Source: an uncultured Bacillota bacterium | GTDB lineage: Bacteria; Bacillota_I; Bacilli_A; Erysipelotrichales; Erysipelotrichaceae | DNA length: 42,315 nucleotides | NCBI GenBank assembly: GCA_900319675.1 | Contig: ONPK01000003.1 | Coordinates: 1 to 42,315, forward strand | Direction of reading: 5' to 3' | In this document: in pieces, positions 7,693-12,888 of the stretch | How the letters are laid out: each line of letters begins with the position of its first letter | Position numbering within the stretch: the first letter of the stretch is position 1 | Position numbers and translations under genes: made by a program | Notes under the pieces: generated by a model | Databases searched by the model: none | What the model was told of the DNA's origin: nothing | Seen by the model: the letters and a program-made list of their open reading frames with translations, nothing else

Positions 7693-8781
7693 ATGAAAAA
7701 ATTATTAGTAGTTTTATTAAGCTTACTGATGGTCTTCTCATTCTCTGGTTGCGGTAAGAAGGAAACAGTTGATGACAAGACAATCGACAAGCTGACAGTA
7801 GCATTCGTTCCATCAAAGGATGCTGACGTTATCTTAACAGCTGCAGAACCTCTGAAGGACCTGTTAAAGAACAAGTTAAAAGAGAAGGGTTACACAGTTA
7901 ACAACGTTGAAATTTCAGTTGGTACTGACTACTCAGCAGTAGGCGAAGGCATGATCGCTGGTTCTATCGATATCGGCTTGATTCCTGCTTCAACTTACGT
8001 TCTGTATCAGCCAGATGGCGTCAAGTTATTACTTGAAGCTCTGCGTTTCGGTGTTGCCGGTGAAGATGGCAATGTCATCGATCCAAAAGACGGAATCGCT
8101 CCATGGAATGCTGGTAAGACACAGGATGCTACAGGCACAGCTACAGGTTATGCTTCTCTGATCTATGTCAACATCGACACAGAAAAGGGCGCAGACTTAT
8201 ATGCTAAGGCTCAGGCTGGCACACTGACATGGGATGATGTCAACAGTGCTAAGTGGTATGTATGTTCTTCAACATCATCAGCTGGTTATGTTTACCCATC
8301 AGTATGGCTGAACAAGAACTTCGGTGAAGGCGTTGGCAACAGCAAGGTTACTATCGCTAACCTGTCAAACGTTACACCTGACGGTTCATATGCTAACATG
8401 ATGCGTGACCTGATCACTGGACAGGTTGATATCACTGTTGGTTATGCAGACGTTCGTAAGGATGCTGCTTCAACAACAAACTTCGAGGCTGCTTATGCTA
8501 CAGAAATCGCTGCTGGCAAGTACAGCAACGTTTGGGACATCATCAAGGTCATCGCTGTTTCAGACTACATCATGAACGATACCATTTCAGTAGCTTCACA
8601 GGAAGTTGATGCCAAGATGACTCCAGAGTTCACAAAGGCTCTGCAGGAAGCATTCATTGAAATCGCATCAACACCAGAAGGCTTAGCATGTGTTGAACCT
8701 TATGCTCATAAGGGTTATCAGGTAGGTCAGGATTCTGACTACGATTCAACAAGAGCTGCTAACGCTTTATTCGCACAGTAA
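7693..8781 (+). CDS. phnD: Phosphonate/phosphate-type ABC transporter substrate-binding lipoprotein PhnD
   Basis: This 362-residue lipoprotein has a signal peptide with lipobox FSGC (lipidated Cys20). The mature protein begins with the PhnD-family strand LTVAFVPSKDADVIL. IDIGLIPASTYVL and ITVGYADVRKD follow, and CSSTSSAGYVYPSVWL is the anion-binding serine/threonine loop typical of phosphonate, phosphite and phosphate binders. It is the first gene of a four-gene operon and delivers substrate to PhnE/PhnE/PhnC. No C-P lyase, phosphonatase or phosphite dehydrogenase gene is in the window, so the true ligand (phosphonate, phosphite or phosphate) is open. Its codons are strongly biased to GCT, GTT and TCA compared with the neighbouring permeases, suggesting high expression, in line with the hairpin that follows it. 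Confidence 0.85.
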   Translation: MKKLLVVLLSLLMVFSFSGCGKKETVDDKTIDKLTVAFVPSKDADVILTAAEPLKDLLKNKLKEKGYTVNNVEISVGTDYSAVGEGMIAGSIDIGLIPASTYVLYQPDGVKLLLEALRFGVAGEDGNVIDPKDGIAPWNAGKTQDATGTATGYASLIYVNIDTEKGADLYAKAQAGTLTWDDVNSAKWYVCSSTSSAGYVYPSVWLNKNFGEGVGNSKVTIANLSNVTPDGSYANMMRDLITGQVDITVGYADVRKDAASTTNFEAAYATEIAAGKYSNVWDIIKVIAVSDYIMNDTISVASQEVDAKMTPEFTKALQEAFIEIASTPEGLACVEPYAHKGYQVGQDSDYDSTRAANALFAQ

Positions 8782-8798
8782 TAGTTTTCATGAAGGTG

Positions 8799-8835
8799 AG
8801 AGATGCATGGTCATTGTGTCATGCATCTCTTTATT
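8799..8835 (+). terminator. Intergenic hairpin/attenuator between phnD and phnC
   Basis: A perfect 11-bp stem, AGAGATGCATG (8799-8809) with CATGCATCTCT (8820-8830), is followed by TTTATTA. No promoter is evident after it, so partial termination or 3'-end protection would raise phnD over phnCEE. Confidence 0.7.
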
Positions 8836-8868
8836 AGTATTTTCTGACATTTATTGGGAGGAACCGAT

Positions 8869-9645
8869 ATGATTAAGTTTGATCATGTTGATAAAGTCTA
8901 TAACAACGGCGTTAAGGCCCTTGACGACGTTAATCTTGAAATAGAACAGGGCGAATTCGTAGCGGTAATCGGCTTATCAGGCGCTGGTAAGAGTACGCTG
9001 ATCAGAACGGTCAACAAGATGATTGACGTTACAAGCGGAACAGTTACCGTCAACGGAACAGATGTTTCCAAGCTGCAGGGCAAAGAACTTCGTAAGTTCA
9101 GAAGAAAGATCGGCATGGTATTCCAGCAGTTTAACCTGGTAAACAGAACCAGTGTCATTAATAACGTACTGGTAGCCAGAGTAGCCGACATGTCACTGTT
9201 CAGAACATTATTCGGATTATACTCTAAGGAAGACAAATTAGCTGCACTGGAGGCCCTTGACAAGGTAGGCATCCTTGACAAGGCATACATCAGAGCTGAC
9301 CAGCTGTCAGGCGGCCAGCAGCAGCGTGTTGCTTTGGCAAGAACACTGGCTCAGAACCCGGAGATCATTCTGGCTGACGAACCTGTAGCTGCTCTTGACC
9401 CGGTCATGGCCGATGTTGTCATGAGCGACTTCTTAAGAATCAACAAAGAAATGAAAATAACCGTTATTATCAACATTCACCATGTTGACTTAGCGTTGCA
9501 ATATGCTGACAGAGTCATAGGCATTCAGGCCGGTAAGGTCGTATTCGACGGTCCTACCAGCAAGGTTACCAATGACATTCTGAAGCAGATCTATGGTCGT
9601 GAACTGAATGATGATGACATGATGAAGGGTAAGAAAAATGATTGA
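8869..9645 (+). CDS. phnC: Phosphonate-type ABC transporter ATP-binding protein PhnC
   Basis: This is a 258-residue ABC ATPase. Walker A is GLSGAGKST, the Q-loop is GMVFQQFNLV, the signature is LSGGQQQRVALAR, Walker B with D-loop is IILADEPVAALDP and the H-loop is NIHHVDLA. The insertion between Q-loop and signature (RVADMSLFRTLFGLYSKEDK) is characteristic of PhnC. It powers uptake through the two PhnE permeases. The ATG at 8869 is preferred over the TTG at 8854 because GGGAGG (8856-8861) sits just upstream of it. Its last eight bases overlap phnE, an arrangement that couples translation. Confidence 0.92.
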   Translation: MIKFDHVDKVYNNGVKALDDVNLEIEQGEFVAVIGLSGAGKSTLIRTVNKMIDVTSGTVTVNGTDVSKLQGKELRKFRRKIGMVFQQFNLVNRTSVINNVLVARVADMSLFRTLFGLYSKEDKLAALEALDKVGILDKAYIRADQLSGGQQQRVALARTLAQNPEIILADEPVAALDPVMADVVMSDFLRINKEMKITVIINIHHVDLALQYADRVIGIQAGKVVFDGPTSKVTNDILKQIYGRELNDDDMMKGKKND

Positions 9646-10468
9646 TGATCTTCTTCACATTTTCTATCCAAGATCATATACGTTAAGCAATGGCAAGGTC
9701 GTAAAGGAGAAGTTCAACTGGGCTCCTTATATCACCATTATTGTCATCATCTTCTCCTTGCTATGTGCTAAGATCACCGGAGTCAAGCTGTCTGTTCTGA
9801 GAGACAGAGGATATCAGTTCTTCGTAATGCTCAAGCAGATGATTCCGCCTAACTGGTCATTCTGGGCTGACGTGAAGAAGCCGATGCTGGACACCATCAT
9901 AATGTCTGTCCTTGGTACCGTCTTCGGCTGTCTGCTTGGATTGCCAATCAGTTTCTATCTGTCAAACAACTTCAAGCTGAACAAGTATTACATGGCTGTT
10001 CACAGAGGTCTGTTAAGTGTTCTGAGAACACTGCCGACAATGATTTATGCTTCACTGATTTCACTGGTCATCGGTACCGGTACCTTAGCAGGTACGATAT
10101 CAATTGCCATCTTCACATATACCATCTGCGTAAAGATGCTGTATGAACAGATCGAGACAATAGACATGGGTCCTTATGAGGCTATGGAGTCTACAGGAGC
10201 ATCAAGAGTACAGTGTATGATCAATGCCGCATATCCTCAGGTCAGAGGTTACTTCTGGAGCACGGTTCTGTATTGCTTCGAGACCAATGTCAGAAGTGCA
10301 GCCATTCTCGGTTACGTAGGAGCCGGCGGTATCGGTGTTCAGATCAATACTCAGTTAAGATGGAGAGCATACGCCAACACAGGACTTATCCTGTTCGTAT
10401 TGGTTATCACGGTAGTCGTTATTGAGACGGTTTCCCGTGAAATTAGAAAGAAGCTGGTTCAGGGATGA
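9638..10468 (+). CDS. phnE: Phosphonate-type ABC transporter permease PhnE (first copy)
   Basis: This is a 276-residue BPD_transp_1 permease. A cytoplasmic N-terminus is followed by a helix at about 29-46 and a bundle of further helices. The ATPase-contacting EAA loop is YEAMESTGASRVQCMINAAYPQVRG, with the conserved Gly and the final VGAGGIGVQI motif typical of PhnE. It forms a heterodimer with the following paralogue. Its start overlaps phnC by 8 bp and its stop overlaps the next start by 4 bp. Confidence 0.9.
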   Translation: MIDDLLHIFYPRSYTLSNGKVVKEKFNWAPYITIIVIIFSLLCAKITGVKLSVLRDRGYQFFVMLKQMIPPNWSFWADVKKPMLDTIIMSVLGTVFGCLLGLPISFYLSNNFKLNKYYMAVHRGLLSVLRTLPTMIYASLISLVIGTGTLAGTISIAIFTYTICVKMLYEQIETIDMGPYEAMESTGASRVQCMINAAYPQVRGYFWSTVLYCFETNVRSAAILGYVGAGGIGVQINTQLRWRAYANTGLILFVLVITVVVIETVSREIRKKLVQG

Positions 10469-11286
10469 CAGAGAAGACTTATACAGTAGACGGTCAGTTA
10501 AGAAAATTCCCGTCACCGCTTCCAAAGTTCCTGATCGAACTTGCAGCCATAGTTGTCATTTATTTCCTGGCTAACTATACGCTGGACTTTTCATCAATCA
10601 ATGACAAGGGACTGAAAATAGCTGTAGCAGCCTTGAAAGGTCTGCTGCATCCGTCAATTGAACTCATTACCAGAATGGACTCATCAGGTCTGTTATACAT
10701 GCTGATGGAAACTCTGGCCATTGCCTTCCTTGGTACCATCATCGGTATCGTACTGGCATTGCCGCTGGCGTTCCTGTCAAGCCGTAACATTGCTCCAAGA
10801 TGGGTAAACTACATCTGTCTGACGATCATTTCAATCATCAGAGCATTCCCGGCCTTCATGTACGGCATCATGTTCGTACGTGTAACTTCATTAGGTGCTT
10901 ATGCGGGTGTGCTTACGATGGCAGTCAGCTCCATAGGCATGCTGGCCAAATTGCTGATAGAAGCCATTGAGGACATGAATCCTGGCATCAATGAAGCTTT
11001 GGATGCTTCGGGATGTTCAGCATTTGAAAAGATCAGATATGGAATCATTCCTCAGTTAAGTTCAAATATCATTTCAATCGTCATTTACCGTCTTGACATC
11101 AACGTCAAGAATGCTTCAATCCTCGGTGTTGTAGGTGCCGGCGGTATCGGTGCATCACTGATATTCTCAATCGGCAAGCAGGCCTGGGACGAAGTCGGAG
11201 CCATGCTGTTCGGCCTTGTAGTACTGGTACTCGTACTGGAATACTTCTCAACAAGGATCAGAAAGAAACTGGCTGTAGGCGAGTAA
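10465..11286 (+). CDS. phnE: Phosphonate-type ABC transporter permease PhnE (second copy)
   Basis: This 273-residue paralogue of the preceding permease has about six transmembrane helices, an EAA loop (NEALDASGCSAFEKIRYGIIPQL) and the ending VGAGGIGASLIFSIG. Two PhnE genes in tandem are the usual Firmicutes arrangement, where the pore is a heterodimer. The start codon overlaps the preceding stop as ATGA. It is the last gene of the operon, with a GAAA-loop terminator 9 bp after the stop. Confidence 0.9.
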   Translation: MTEKTYTVDGQLRKFPSPLPKFLIELAAIVVIYFLANYTLDFSSINDKGLKIAVAALKGLLHPSIELITRMDSSGLLYMLMETLAIAFLGTIIGIVLALPLAFLSSRNIAPRWVNYICLTIISIIRAFPAFMYGIMFVRVTSLGAYAGVLTMAVSSIGMLAKLLIEAIEDMNPGINEALDASGCSAFEKIRYGIIPQLSSNIISIVIYRLDINVKNASILGVVGAGGIGASLIFSIGKQAWDEVGAMLFGLVVLVLVLEYFSTRIRKKLAVGE

Positions 11287-11357: not shown

Positions 11358-11936
11358 ATGGCAAAACTATACTTCAAATTCGGCGCAATGGGATCATCAA
11401 AGACAGCTAATGCCCTGATGACCAGATTTAACTATCAGGAAAAGGGAAAAAAGGTCTGGCTGATTAAGCCGGCTATTGATAACAGAGATGGGGAGACGGT
11501 GCTTCGCAGCCGCGTAGGTCTGGAGGCAAATGCCCAGGTGATCAAGAGTACTGACAGGATACTGGATATCTGTCCGATAGATGACATCGATGTCATCATC
11601 TGTGATGAGAGCCAGTTTCTTACACCGCAGCAGGTTGACGATCTCAGACTGATCGTCTCAGAACACGACATACCCGTACTGTGCTTTGGCCTGAGATCCG
11701 ACTTCCTGACACATCTTTTCCCGGGTTCTCAGCGTCTGTTTGAACTCGCTGACAGCATTACCGAAATAAAGTCGATATGCAGATGCGGGGCAAAGGCAAC
11801 CGTAAATGCGAGATTTGACGGTGAAGGTAACATACAGACCTCCGGTGAACAGGTTTTCATTGGCGGCAATGAAAGCTATGAAAGCATGTGCTGGAGCTGT
11901 TACCACAAGATGATAATGGAAAAGGGCAGAAGATAG
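11358..11936 (+). CDS. tdk: Thymidine kinase, type II
   Basis: This 192-residue enzyme phosphorylates thymidine with ATP in pyrimidine salvage. Landmarks are P-loop GAMGSSKT (residues 8-15), Walker B-like VIICDESQFL with the catalytic Glu, and a structural zinc site formed by CRCGAK and a later CWSCYHK, with the lasso-loop ending ESYESMCW. The length is normal for the family. AGGTGAT provides the ribosome-binding site and a TATAAT (11336-11341) lies just upstream. Terminators on both sides make it monocistronic. Confidence 0.95.
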   Translation: MAKLYFKFGAMGSSKTANALMTRFNYQEKGKKVWLIKPAIDNRDGETVLRSRVGLEANAQVIKSTDRILDICPIDDIDVIICDESQFLTPQQVDDLRLIVSEHDIPVLCFGLRSDFLTHLFPGSQRLFELADSITEIKSICRCGAKATVNARFDGEGNIQTSGEQVFIGGNESYESMCWSCYHKMIMEKGRR

Positions 11937-11938
11937 AT

Positions 11939-11967
11939 AAAAAAGGAACCACATGGTTCCTTTTTTA
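11939..11967 (+). terminator. Terminator of tdk
   Basis: GGAACC (11945-11950) and GGTTCC (11955-11960) around the loop ACAT, extended by an A-run on the left and six T on the right, so it could act in both directions. Confidence 0.9.
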
Positions 11968-11977
11968 TGTTTTCTTT

Positions 11978-12091
11978 GGGATTAAATAAATAGAAAGGAG
12001 AATTATTCTCACAAATCTCTTCTGATTTGCAAGTATATGATAACAGTATTGTTTCATTAAATTATATTGTCAGTGTGTGAAATAATGTGAT
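11978..12091. repeat. Structured element, copy A of a tandem duplication
   Basis: This is the first copy of a roughly 115-bp element. It opens GGGAT-TAAAT, carries a 28-bp block (11991-12018) identical to copy B, and ends GTGAAATAATGTGAT, again identical. Internal symmetry: GAGAAT-T-ATTCTC (11998-12010), CAAATC/GATTTG (12012-12029) and AACA/TGTT (about 12042-12053). The end block contains TGTGA-AATAA-TGTGA, a direct repeat with a 10-bp period. No credible open reading frame follows the AAAGGAG in it. A terminator follows directly. It could be a small RNA gene, an RNA control element or a protein-binding array; strand unknown. Confidence 0.7.
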
Positions 12092-12111
12092 TAATTTAAC
12101 AACCGGATAAA

Positions 12112-12147
12112 AAAATAAAGAAGCTAGGCACACTTCTTTATTTTCTT
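12112..12147. terminator. Terminator between the two element copies
   Basis: AAAATAAAGAAG (12112-12123) pairs with CTTCTTTATTTT (12133-12144), a perfect 12-bp AT-rich stem with a 9-base loop. A-run and T-run lie outside, so it can work on either strand. Confidence 0.75.
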
Positions 12148-12155
12148 GTTAAGGG

Positions 12156-12272
12156 GGGATAAATCTTAAATAGAAAGGAGAATTATTCTCACAAATCTTT
12201 TCCTGATTTGCAACTATATACTAACAATAATGTTTATGCAAAATATATCAGTTGTATGTGAAATAATGTGAT
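12156..12272. repeat. Structured element, copy B of a tandem duplication
   Basis: This second copy lies 180 bp downstream of copy A. The blocks 12171-12198 and 12258-12272 are identical to copy A, and the middle differs at scattered positions. Differences fall mainly in the loops: CAAATC-TTTTCCT-GATTTG against copy A's six-base loop, and AACA-ATAA-TGTT against AACA-GTAT-TGTT, so the stems are kept. On the minus strand both copies show a -10-like box 17 bp after a weak -35 (copy B TTGCAT 12236-12241 and TATAGT 12213-12218; copy A TTAATG and TATACT), so a short minus-strand RNA is one option. It stands immediately before the HAD-IB gene's promoter. Confidence 0.7.
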
Positions 12273-12280
12273 AATGAGAT

Positions 12281-12310
12281 TTGCCAACAGGGGCCTGTTT
12301 AACATACAAT
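12281..12310 (+). promoter_or_regulatory. Promoter with internal inverted repeat, HAD-IB gene
   Basis: TTGCCA (12281-12286), an 18-bp spacer and TACAAT (12305-12310). The spacer holds the inverted repeat AACAGG-GG-CCTGTT (12286-12299), placed as a repressor operator would be. The transcript start near 12317 falls just before GGTGA and the ATG, and excludes the duplicated elements from the leader. Confidence 0.55.
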
Positions 12311-12327: not shown

Positions 12328-12888
12328 ATGAATGTTTACGATTTTGACAGGACGATTTACCGCAGGGATTCTGAAGTTGATTTCTTTTTCTATGAGTTGA
12401 GAAAGCATCCGGGATTGCTGCGCTACCTGCCCAGGCAGTGCGTCGGATTCATCAAGTACTTTCTGAAGATCATTGACAAGACAGCGATGAAATCCAACTT
12501 TTACTGTTACCTTAAGGGAGTCCGGGACATCGATTCTGAAGTTTCCAGATTCTGGGATGAGTATCAGAACAACATACACTCATGGTATCCATCAAGACAC
12601 CGTGATGATGACATCGTCATAACCGCTTCTCCAGAGTTTCTGGTTGCTGAGGGATGCCGCAGACTTAACATACCGACCTGCCTTGGAACACCGGTTGTAA
12701 AGGAGAAGGGATACATTGACGGCCTGAACTGTCATGATACGGAAAAGGTAAGAAGGTTTGTTGAAGCCGGATTTGATCCGGACAGCATAGATGAGTTCTA
12801 TTCTGATTCATACAGCGATCAGCCGTTAAGGGACATCGCCAGAAAGGGATATCTCGTCAAGGGCGAAAAGCTTGTTGACTGGCAATAG
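12328..12888 (+). CDS. HAD-IB family phosphatase (SerB-like subfamily)
   Basis: This 186-residue protein has the HAD motifs: MNVYDFDRTIYRRDS (motif I, nucleophile Asp5 and acid/base Asp7), IVITASPEFLV (motif II Ser/Thr) and DEFYSDSYSDQPLRDIA (motif IV Asp pair), with a helical cap in between. This places it in subfamily IB with phosphoserine phosphatase-like enzymes acting on small phosphate esters. The physiological substrate is not evident. It is followed 8 bp later by recX, probably in one transcript with yhaM. Its promoter contains a candidate operator and stands just after the tandem structured elements. Confidence 0.82.
   Translation: MNVYDFDRTIYRRDSEVDFFFYELRKHPGLLRYLPRQCVGFIKYFLKIIDKTAMKSNFYCYLKGVRDIDSEVSRFWDEYQNNIHSWYPSRHRDDDIVITASPEFLVAEGCRRLNIPTCLGTPVVKEKGYIDGLNCHDTEKVRRFVEAGFDPDSIDEFYSDSYSDQPLRDIARKGYLVKGEKLVDWQ

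Follow-up and report, generated by a model that had tools for sequence, protein, structure and literature searches.

A duplicated element between tdk and a HAD-family hydrolase gene

In an uncultured Erysipelotrichaceae genome (GCA_900319675.1), a gene-free stretch carries the same structured element twice, which raises the question of whether the element encodes RNA, binds a regulator, or both. We analysed it within a window of 42,315 nt (positions 1 to 42,315 of contig ONPK01000003.1). The first-pass annotation, made from the letters alone, had reported two copies 180 bp apart with identical blocks of 28 and 15 bp. A spacing of 180-181 bp was confirmed, and all genomes of the genus have kept the element; the identity of the blocks also held, although their lengths had been set slightly short, the actual blocks being 32 bp (11987-12018 and 12167-12198), 11 bp (12022-12032 and 12203-12213) and 16 bp (12076-12091 and 12257-12272). 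Since a 36-nt near-perfect repeat and an adjoining 70-nt repeat of 77% identity share one spacing within 0.9 kb, the similarity of the copies is not due to chance.

On the minus strand, each copy runs from TCACATTATTTCACA through 33 nt whose last three are TGT, then through TAnnnT, GCAAATC-loop-GATTTGT, GAGAATAATTCTCCTTTCTATTT and ATCCC, to a terminator. Judged from the sequence, the element consists of two paralogous small-RNA genes arranged in tandem and read from that strand, each predicted to be transcribed from its own promoter to its own terminator (Table 1). The AT-rich hairpin that had been placed between the copies does exist, and its predicted identity is that of the minus-strand intrinsic terminator of copy B. 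The functional unit reaches the terminator at 11937, past the interval 11978-12272 first marked. Tandem small RNAs had been proposed for either strand; it is on the minus strand that the order of promoter, +1, 5' hairpin and terminator is conserved in 24 close relatives. The element was said to hold no convincing ORF, and the aligned copies indeed have no conserved start or frame, so a peptide-coding transcript was rejected. Upstream of tdk lies a phosphonate/phosphate transporter of the phnD-phnC-phnE-phnE type (7693-11286), and a PhnD-like lipoprotein gene adjoins tdk in relatives too.

Table 1 Features of the duplicated locus and its neighbours in the window.
Feature	Position	Strand	Evidence or remark
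HAD-family hydrolase gene, divergent neighbour	12328..12888	+	Pfam HAD, synteny
Copy B activator box TCACATTATTTCACA (TCACA-N5-TCACA), -60 to -46	12257..12271	-	near-invariant in relatives; 33 nt before -10
Copy B -35-like ATATTT	12241..12246	-	ATAWTT conserved there over 97 sites
Copy B -10 TAGTAT	12218..12223	-	TGT before it: extended -10
Small RNA gene B, ~103 nt, predicted +1 at 12211	12109..12211	-	fold, homologues
5' hairpin of small RNA B	12191..12211	-	compensatory changes in relatives
Putative anti-Shine-Dalgarno seed UUCUCCUUUCUAUUU of B	12168..12182	-	most conserved RNA part
Second C-rich stretch AUUUAUCCCCCCUUAACA of B	12147..12164	-	conserved in most relatives
Intrinsic terminator of small RNA B (hairpin between copies)	12109..12147	-	inverted repeat, U tail, fold
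Copy A activator box	12076..12090	-	
Copy A -35-like ATAATT	12060..12065	-	
Copy A -10 TATCAT	12037..12042	-	TGT before it: extended -10
Small RNA gene A, ~94 nt, predicted +1 at 12030	11937..12030	-	fold
5' hairpin of small RNA A	12011..12030	-	compensatory changes in relatives
Putative anti-Shine-Dalgarno seed of A	11988..12002	-	
AUCCC stretch of A	11978..11982	-	shorter than that of B
Bidirectional terminator shared by small RNA A (-) and tdk (+)	11937..11968	-	
tdk, thymidine kinase gene, convergent neighbour	11358..11936	+	Pfam TK

Promoter architecture

The TGTGA-AATAA-TGTGA direct repeats noted in the first pass are real: the repeat is identical in copies A and B and in nearly all relatives, and it forms the predicted activator box before each small RNA. 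In all 18 aligned copies the RNA starts equally far from the box. Across the aligned promoters (97 sites), ATAWTT occupies -35 to -30 with a 17-nt spacer, and this element had played no part in choosing the sites. Another hexamer, similar to TATAAT and 5 nt downstream, was rejected as the -10, as other genera do not keep it. The proposed AACA/TGTT hairpin did not survive, because it lies outside the RNA and falls in the promoter spacer and the -10. We also built a promoter matrix from 74 small-RNA promoters, solely of types other than the window's; it scored the two copies' sites at 36.0 and 34.0, the next best in the window reaching -1.9.

Conservation and distribution of the small RNAs

Sixty relatives were searched. 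The element lies at the same tdk/HAD locus in all eight other genomes of the genus (in one of them at a contig end), with two tandem copies in six of the nine. The ortholog of the HAD gene flanks the small RNA in other genomes, and one outgroup genus retains a copy beside it. A pattern scan of named GTDB genomes returned 16 stretches, three of them unrelated chance matches; the rest came from MAGs titled Erysipelotrichaceae or Erysipelotrichia, plus one record titled 'uncultured Firmicutes'.

The pattern box-N33-TAnnnT occurs in 109 of 316 Erysipelotrichales genomes, against about four hits for the reversed-pattern control. Automatic classification of the unique sites examined (n = 109) gave 86 small-RNA-like sites (79%), 12 gene promoters and 11 others, where small-RNA-like means a terminator within 45-190 nt and no ORF, a test that random positions pass in 248 of 1090 cases (23%). 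By eye, several of the sites in the two smaller classes are small RNAs as well. Within the genus the box occurs at small RNAs only. Beyond the order, box hits are mostly at control level; in one family outside it, four box hits are small RNAs and one stands before a CssR-like regulator gene (L349).

Tandem pairs are also seen in other genera, and one locus (L214, G233 C28:3046-4683) has three tandem box-bearing promoter sites in 1.7 kb. In genome G002 (L048:1581-3350, C4), two near-identical extra small-RNA copies flank an AAA_14/DUF4143 ATPase gene, an arrangement that an insertion of the gene between copies, or a duplication of the RNA around it, would produce. Genus g3 of the order has almost no box sites, and the CssR ortholog is absent from G010, the one genome tested; a joint loss of regulator and small RNAs is possible there.

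Structure of the small RNAs

The CAAATC/GATTTG hairpin of the first pass proved real, and it covaries. The 24 close relatives have 10 distinct arm pairs of the 5' hairpin, in which 55 of 60 cells are paired, whereas arm shuffles gave a mean of 46 and reached 55 in 0 of 2000 cases; pairs 3 and 4 of the hairpin show A-T to G-C double changes in relatives. Homologues with compensatory changes, on which the annotation had made its small-RNA proposal depend, are thus present, and the proposal stands. Small RNA B folds at -23.0 kcal/mol (z -3.55) and small RNA A at -26.0 kcal/mol (z -4.96). Over all genera, a stem begins within the first four bases at 73 of 93 distinct small-RNA-type sites, compared with 19.5 in shuffles.

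Downstream of the hairpin, the seed is nearly constant across aligned copies, whereas the terminator sequences are wholly different, as expected if fold alone matters for a terminator. Seed and 16S tail CACCUCCUUUCU have the 9-mer CUCCUUUCU in common. The tail GGATCACCTCCTTTCT was taken from complete relatives because none was found in the genus drafts. In the window copies, a 5-bp GAGAA/UUCUC pairing would hide part of the seed. The exposed RNA parts are C-rich nearly everywhere, and their sequences vary (CUCCUUUCU, CCCUUUCUU, CUAUCCCC, CUCUCUCC, UUCCCAAA). At two sister-family loci (L101, L102) the small RNAs carry four repeats resembling UUCCCAA, including one within the loop of the terminator.

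These data bear on two readings that would do without minus-strand RNAs. An untranscribed regulator-binding array or mobile DNA repeat would account for the direct repeats and for the two extra near-identical copies around the G002 ATPase gene (L048), but it is very improbable given the RNA-level covariation, the terminators, a promoter geometry that is fixed across genera, and a single conserved locus, not dispersed copies, in nearly all genomes of the genus. The array that had been offered as an alternative to small RNAs is correct in another sense, since a box stands before each RNA and its regulator would be of the CssR type; both suggestions were right. We consider it just as remote that the element is a plus-strand leader or small RNA: a weak promoter-like match at 12040-12068 (9/12) and the bidirectional terminator would suit it, yet such matches are expected by chance (shuffle mean 2.5) and the conserved promoter parts all read on the minus strand. 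Moreover, a separate promoter-like site for the next gene lies at 12281-12310, which agrees with the earlier statement that the element is not that gene's leader.

CssR as the candidate regulator

A response-regulator gene of the OmpR family has the box in front of it, with unchanged spacing, in five sister-family genomes. The ortholog of this regulator in the window's genome (G000:C189:4283-4942) shares 66% identity with it, compared with 36-37% for paralogs, and a HAMP/HisKA kinase gene follows. The best solved match of its DNA-binding domain is CssR (7cx5) at 114.9 bits, the next being 58.2, a gap of 57 bits. No NCBIfam equivalog reached its cut-off for this regulator, and a search of a plasmid collection gave 43% matches at best.

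In the sister family, the matrix placed a site immediately before cssR at 21 of 24 loci (scores 14.5-33.8), with two further cssR loci marginal (8.2-8.3), and before htrA at 16 of 16 loci (10.3-28.0), against a shuffled maximum of 8.8. The htrA assignment is supported by the seed locus, which has Trypsin_2 and PDZ domains. In B. subtilis, the CssR box is given as TTTTCACA in PMC6749698, with CssR autoregulating and controlling htrA/htrB; the half-site ATTTCACA agrees at 7 of 8 positions with the canonical octamer quoted there. The link to CssR rests on relatives and orthology because, in the window's own genome, the box is absent at both the cssR and the htrA promoters. Two genus drafts, G003 and G007 (68% and 95% complete), have the small RNAs, and no CssR ortholog was found in them. 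PhoP/PhoB, a candidate in view of the nearby phnD, was rejected: phnD has no such box, and the box is found at cssR and htrA instead.

Proposed mechanism and targets

Gene structure, strand, promoter architecture, conservation, hairpin covariation, the CssR ortholog and the cssR/htrA promoters of relatives were computed; transcription, CssR binding and Shine-Dalgarno (SD) masking we infer. The RNAs are probably SD-masking small RNAs activated by CssR under secretion stress. Phosphorylated CssR, of the CssRS secretion-stress two-component system, would bind TCACA-N5-TCACA upstream of a weak promoter, one with a poor -35 and an extended -10, and recruit RNA polymerase to it. Each RNA of ~94-103 nt would comprise the 5' hairpin, an exposed CUCCUUUCU that copies the 16S anti-SD tail together with a C-run, and the intrinsic terminator. 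The exposed C-rich segments could then pair with the SD regions of target mRNAs and block translation, the presumed outcome being less synthesis of exported or membrane proteins during export stress. SD masking is supported by the CUCCUUUCU that the seed shares with the 16S tail and by the csRNA and RoxS precedents.

An 11-nt perfect SD complement near an ATG was found at no gene of the window's own draft. In relatives it occurs at scattered genes, namely livH (three genomes), PTS permeases, rpsL and others, which serve as leads only. When the motif of other genera was used for a target search, most hits were antisense strands of the small RNAs. An anti-start-codon (CAU) beside the anti-SD is absent in the window copies and present in G003, G005 and G008 (complement AGAAAGGAGAATTCTATG).

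Two variants of this reading keep the small RNAs and change what acts on them or what they do. That the activator is an OmpR-family regulator other than the CssR ortholog seems unlikely to us: the genus box occurs at small RNAs only, two or more further OmpR-family regulators are present in the genome and two drafts lack a CssR ortholog, but sister-family cssR and htrA have the same promoter, the DNA-binding domain is that of CssR by a wide margin, and the same promoter stands before a CssR-like gene in another lineage and, at near-same spacing, before the G032 cdaA operon, upstream of the regulator. It is unlikely too, if a little less so, that the RNAs are real and do not mask SD sequences, titrating a protein or another RNA instead, or carrying the anti-SD segment for another use. 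Such a role would fit the lack of a convincing conserved target in our searches and the C-rich segments that differ between genera; against it stand the exposed CUCCUUUCU, the most conserved part and a mimic of the 16S tail, and the CiaR csRNAs and RoxS/RsaE, which share this design and are considered to act on translation initiation regions (PMC3091779, PMC4409812).

With SD masking under CssR as the preferred reading, we give about even chances to a broader proposal: that a dedicated small-RNA arm belongs to the CssRS response across Erysipelotrichales and also in one or more further lineages of the class, and that in the window's family the regulon has moved from the protease htrA towards small RNAs that mimic the 16S tail and throttle the translation of exported or membrane proteins. 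Such RNAs would be a Gram-positive equivalent of the sigma-E small RNAs.

Relation to known small RNAs

The closest parallel is offered by the CiaR csRNAs of streptococci, predicted at 51-202 nt and driven by a two-component system through a direct repeat (PMC3091779, PMC8186281). Both systems combine several similar small RNAs with a response regulator and a direct repeat, both kinds of RNA have a 5' stem-loop, an unpaired anti-SD region and a terminator, and CiaRH also controls htrA. However, the csRNA regulator is CiaR and that of the window RNAs would be of the CssR type. The csRNA box, NTTAAG-N5-TTTAAG, lies ten bases from the -10 and is not found at the window copies, whose box TCACATTATTTCACA stands at -60 to -46, 33 nt from the -10, with an ATAWTT -35. 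The csRNAs have an anti-AUG that the window copies lack, and there is no recognisable sequence relation between the two. Because the regulator box and the anti-AUG both differ, the window RNAs fall outside the csRNA family; by analogy, the best explanation is that they function like csRNAs, with a regulator, a box and a promoter geometry that differ.

RoxS/RsaE, activated by ResDE/SrrAB (PMC4409812), is likewise a Gram-positive small RNA that a two-component system activates and whose C-rich regions pair with SD sequences; it differs in regulator, sequence and structure. With the B. subtilis CssRS regulon (PMC6749698, PMC6057675) the locus shares a CssR ortholog in the genome, a TTTTCACA-type box, and a promoter common to the sister-family cssR and htrA, cssRS and htrA being under this control in relatives. 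The regulon described in those two papers consists of protein genes, whereas here the main targets would be small RNAs.

The element had not been recognised as a known riboswitch, and Rfam 15 (RsaE included) agrees: no family reached its gathering score in the window, permissive thresholds gave chance hits only, and the loci of 20 relatives returned tRNAs only. The description that suits the RNAs best is a small-RNA family of the CssR type, two-component-activated and without an Rfam entry. No report of CssR-controlled small RNAs was found in the literature searched, a set with most subscription papers outside it, and priority is not proven. If the reading is true, the secretion-stress response gains a post-transcriptional arm and the csRNA design appears under a different regulator. 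With the promoter signature, dozens of gut-bacterial small RNAs missing from the public catalogue can be picked out.

Other genes with the box

Box sites were also met at protein genes of other genera. In G032 (L126, C15) the box lies at nearly the same spacing before cdaA, encoding c-di-AMP synthase; the same strand carries a CssR-like regulator gene about 4 kb further downstream. An apparent glmM immediately precedes the regulator in several other genera. A further exact box site lies before ftsH (L206 at 1500, minus strand, G127; G158:C1:126200), where the promoter overlaps a CIRCE-like repeat, TTAGCACTC...GAGTGTGCTAA, which suggests that ftsH may be under joint control of heat-shock and secretion-stress regulators.
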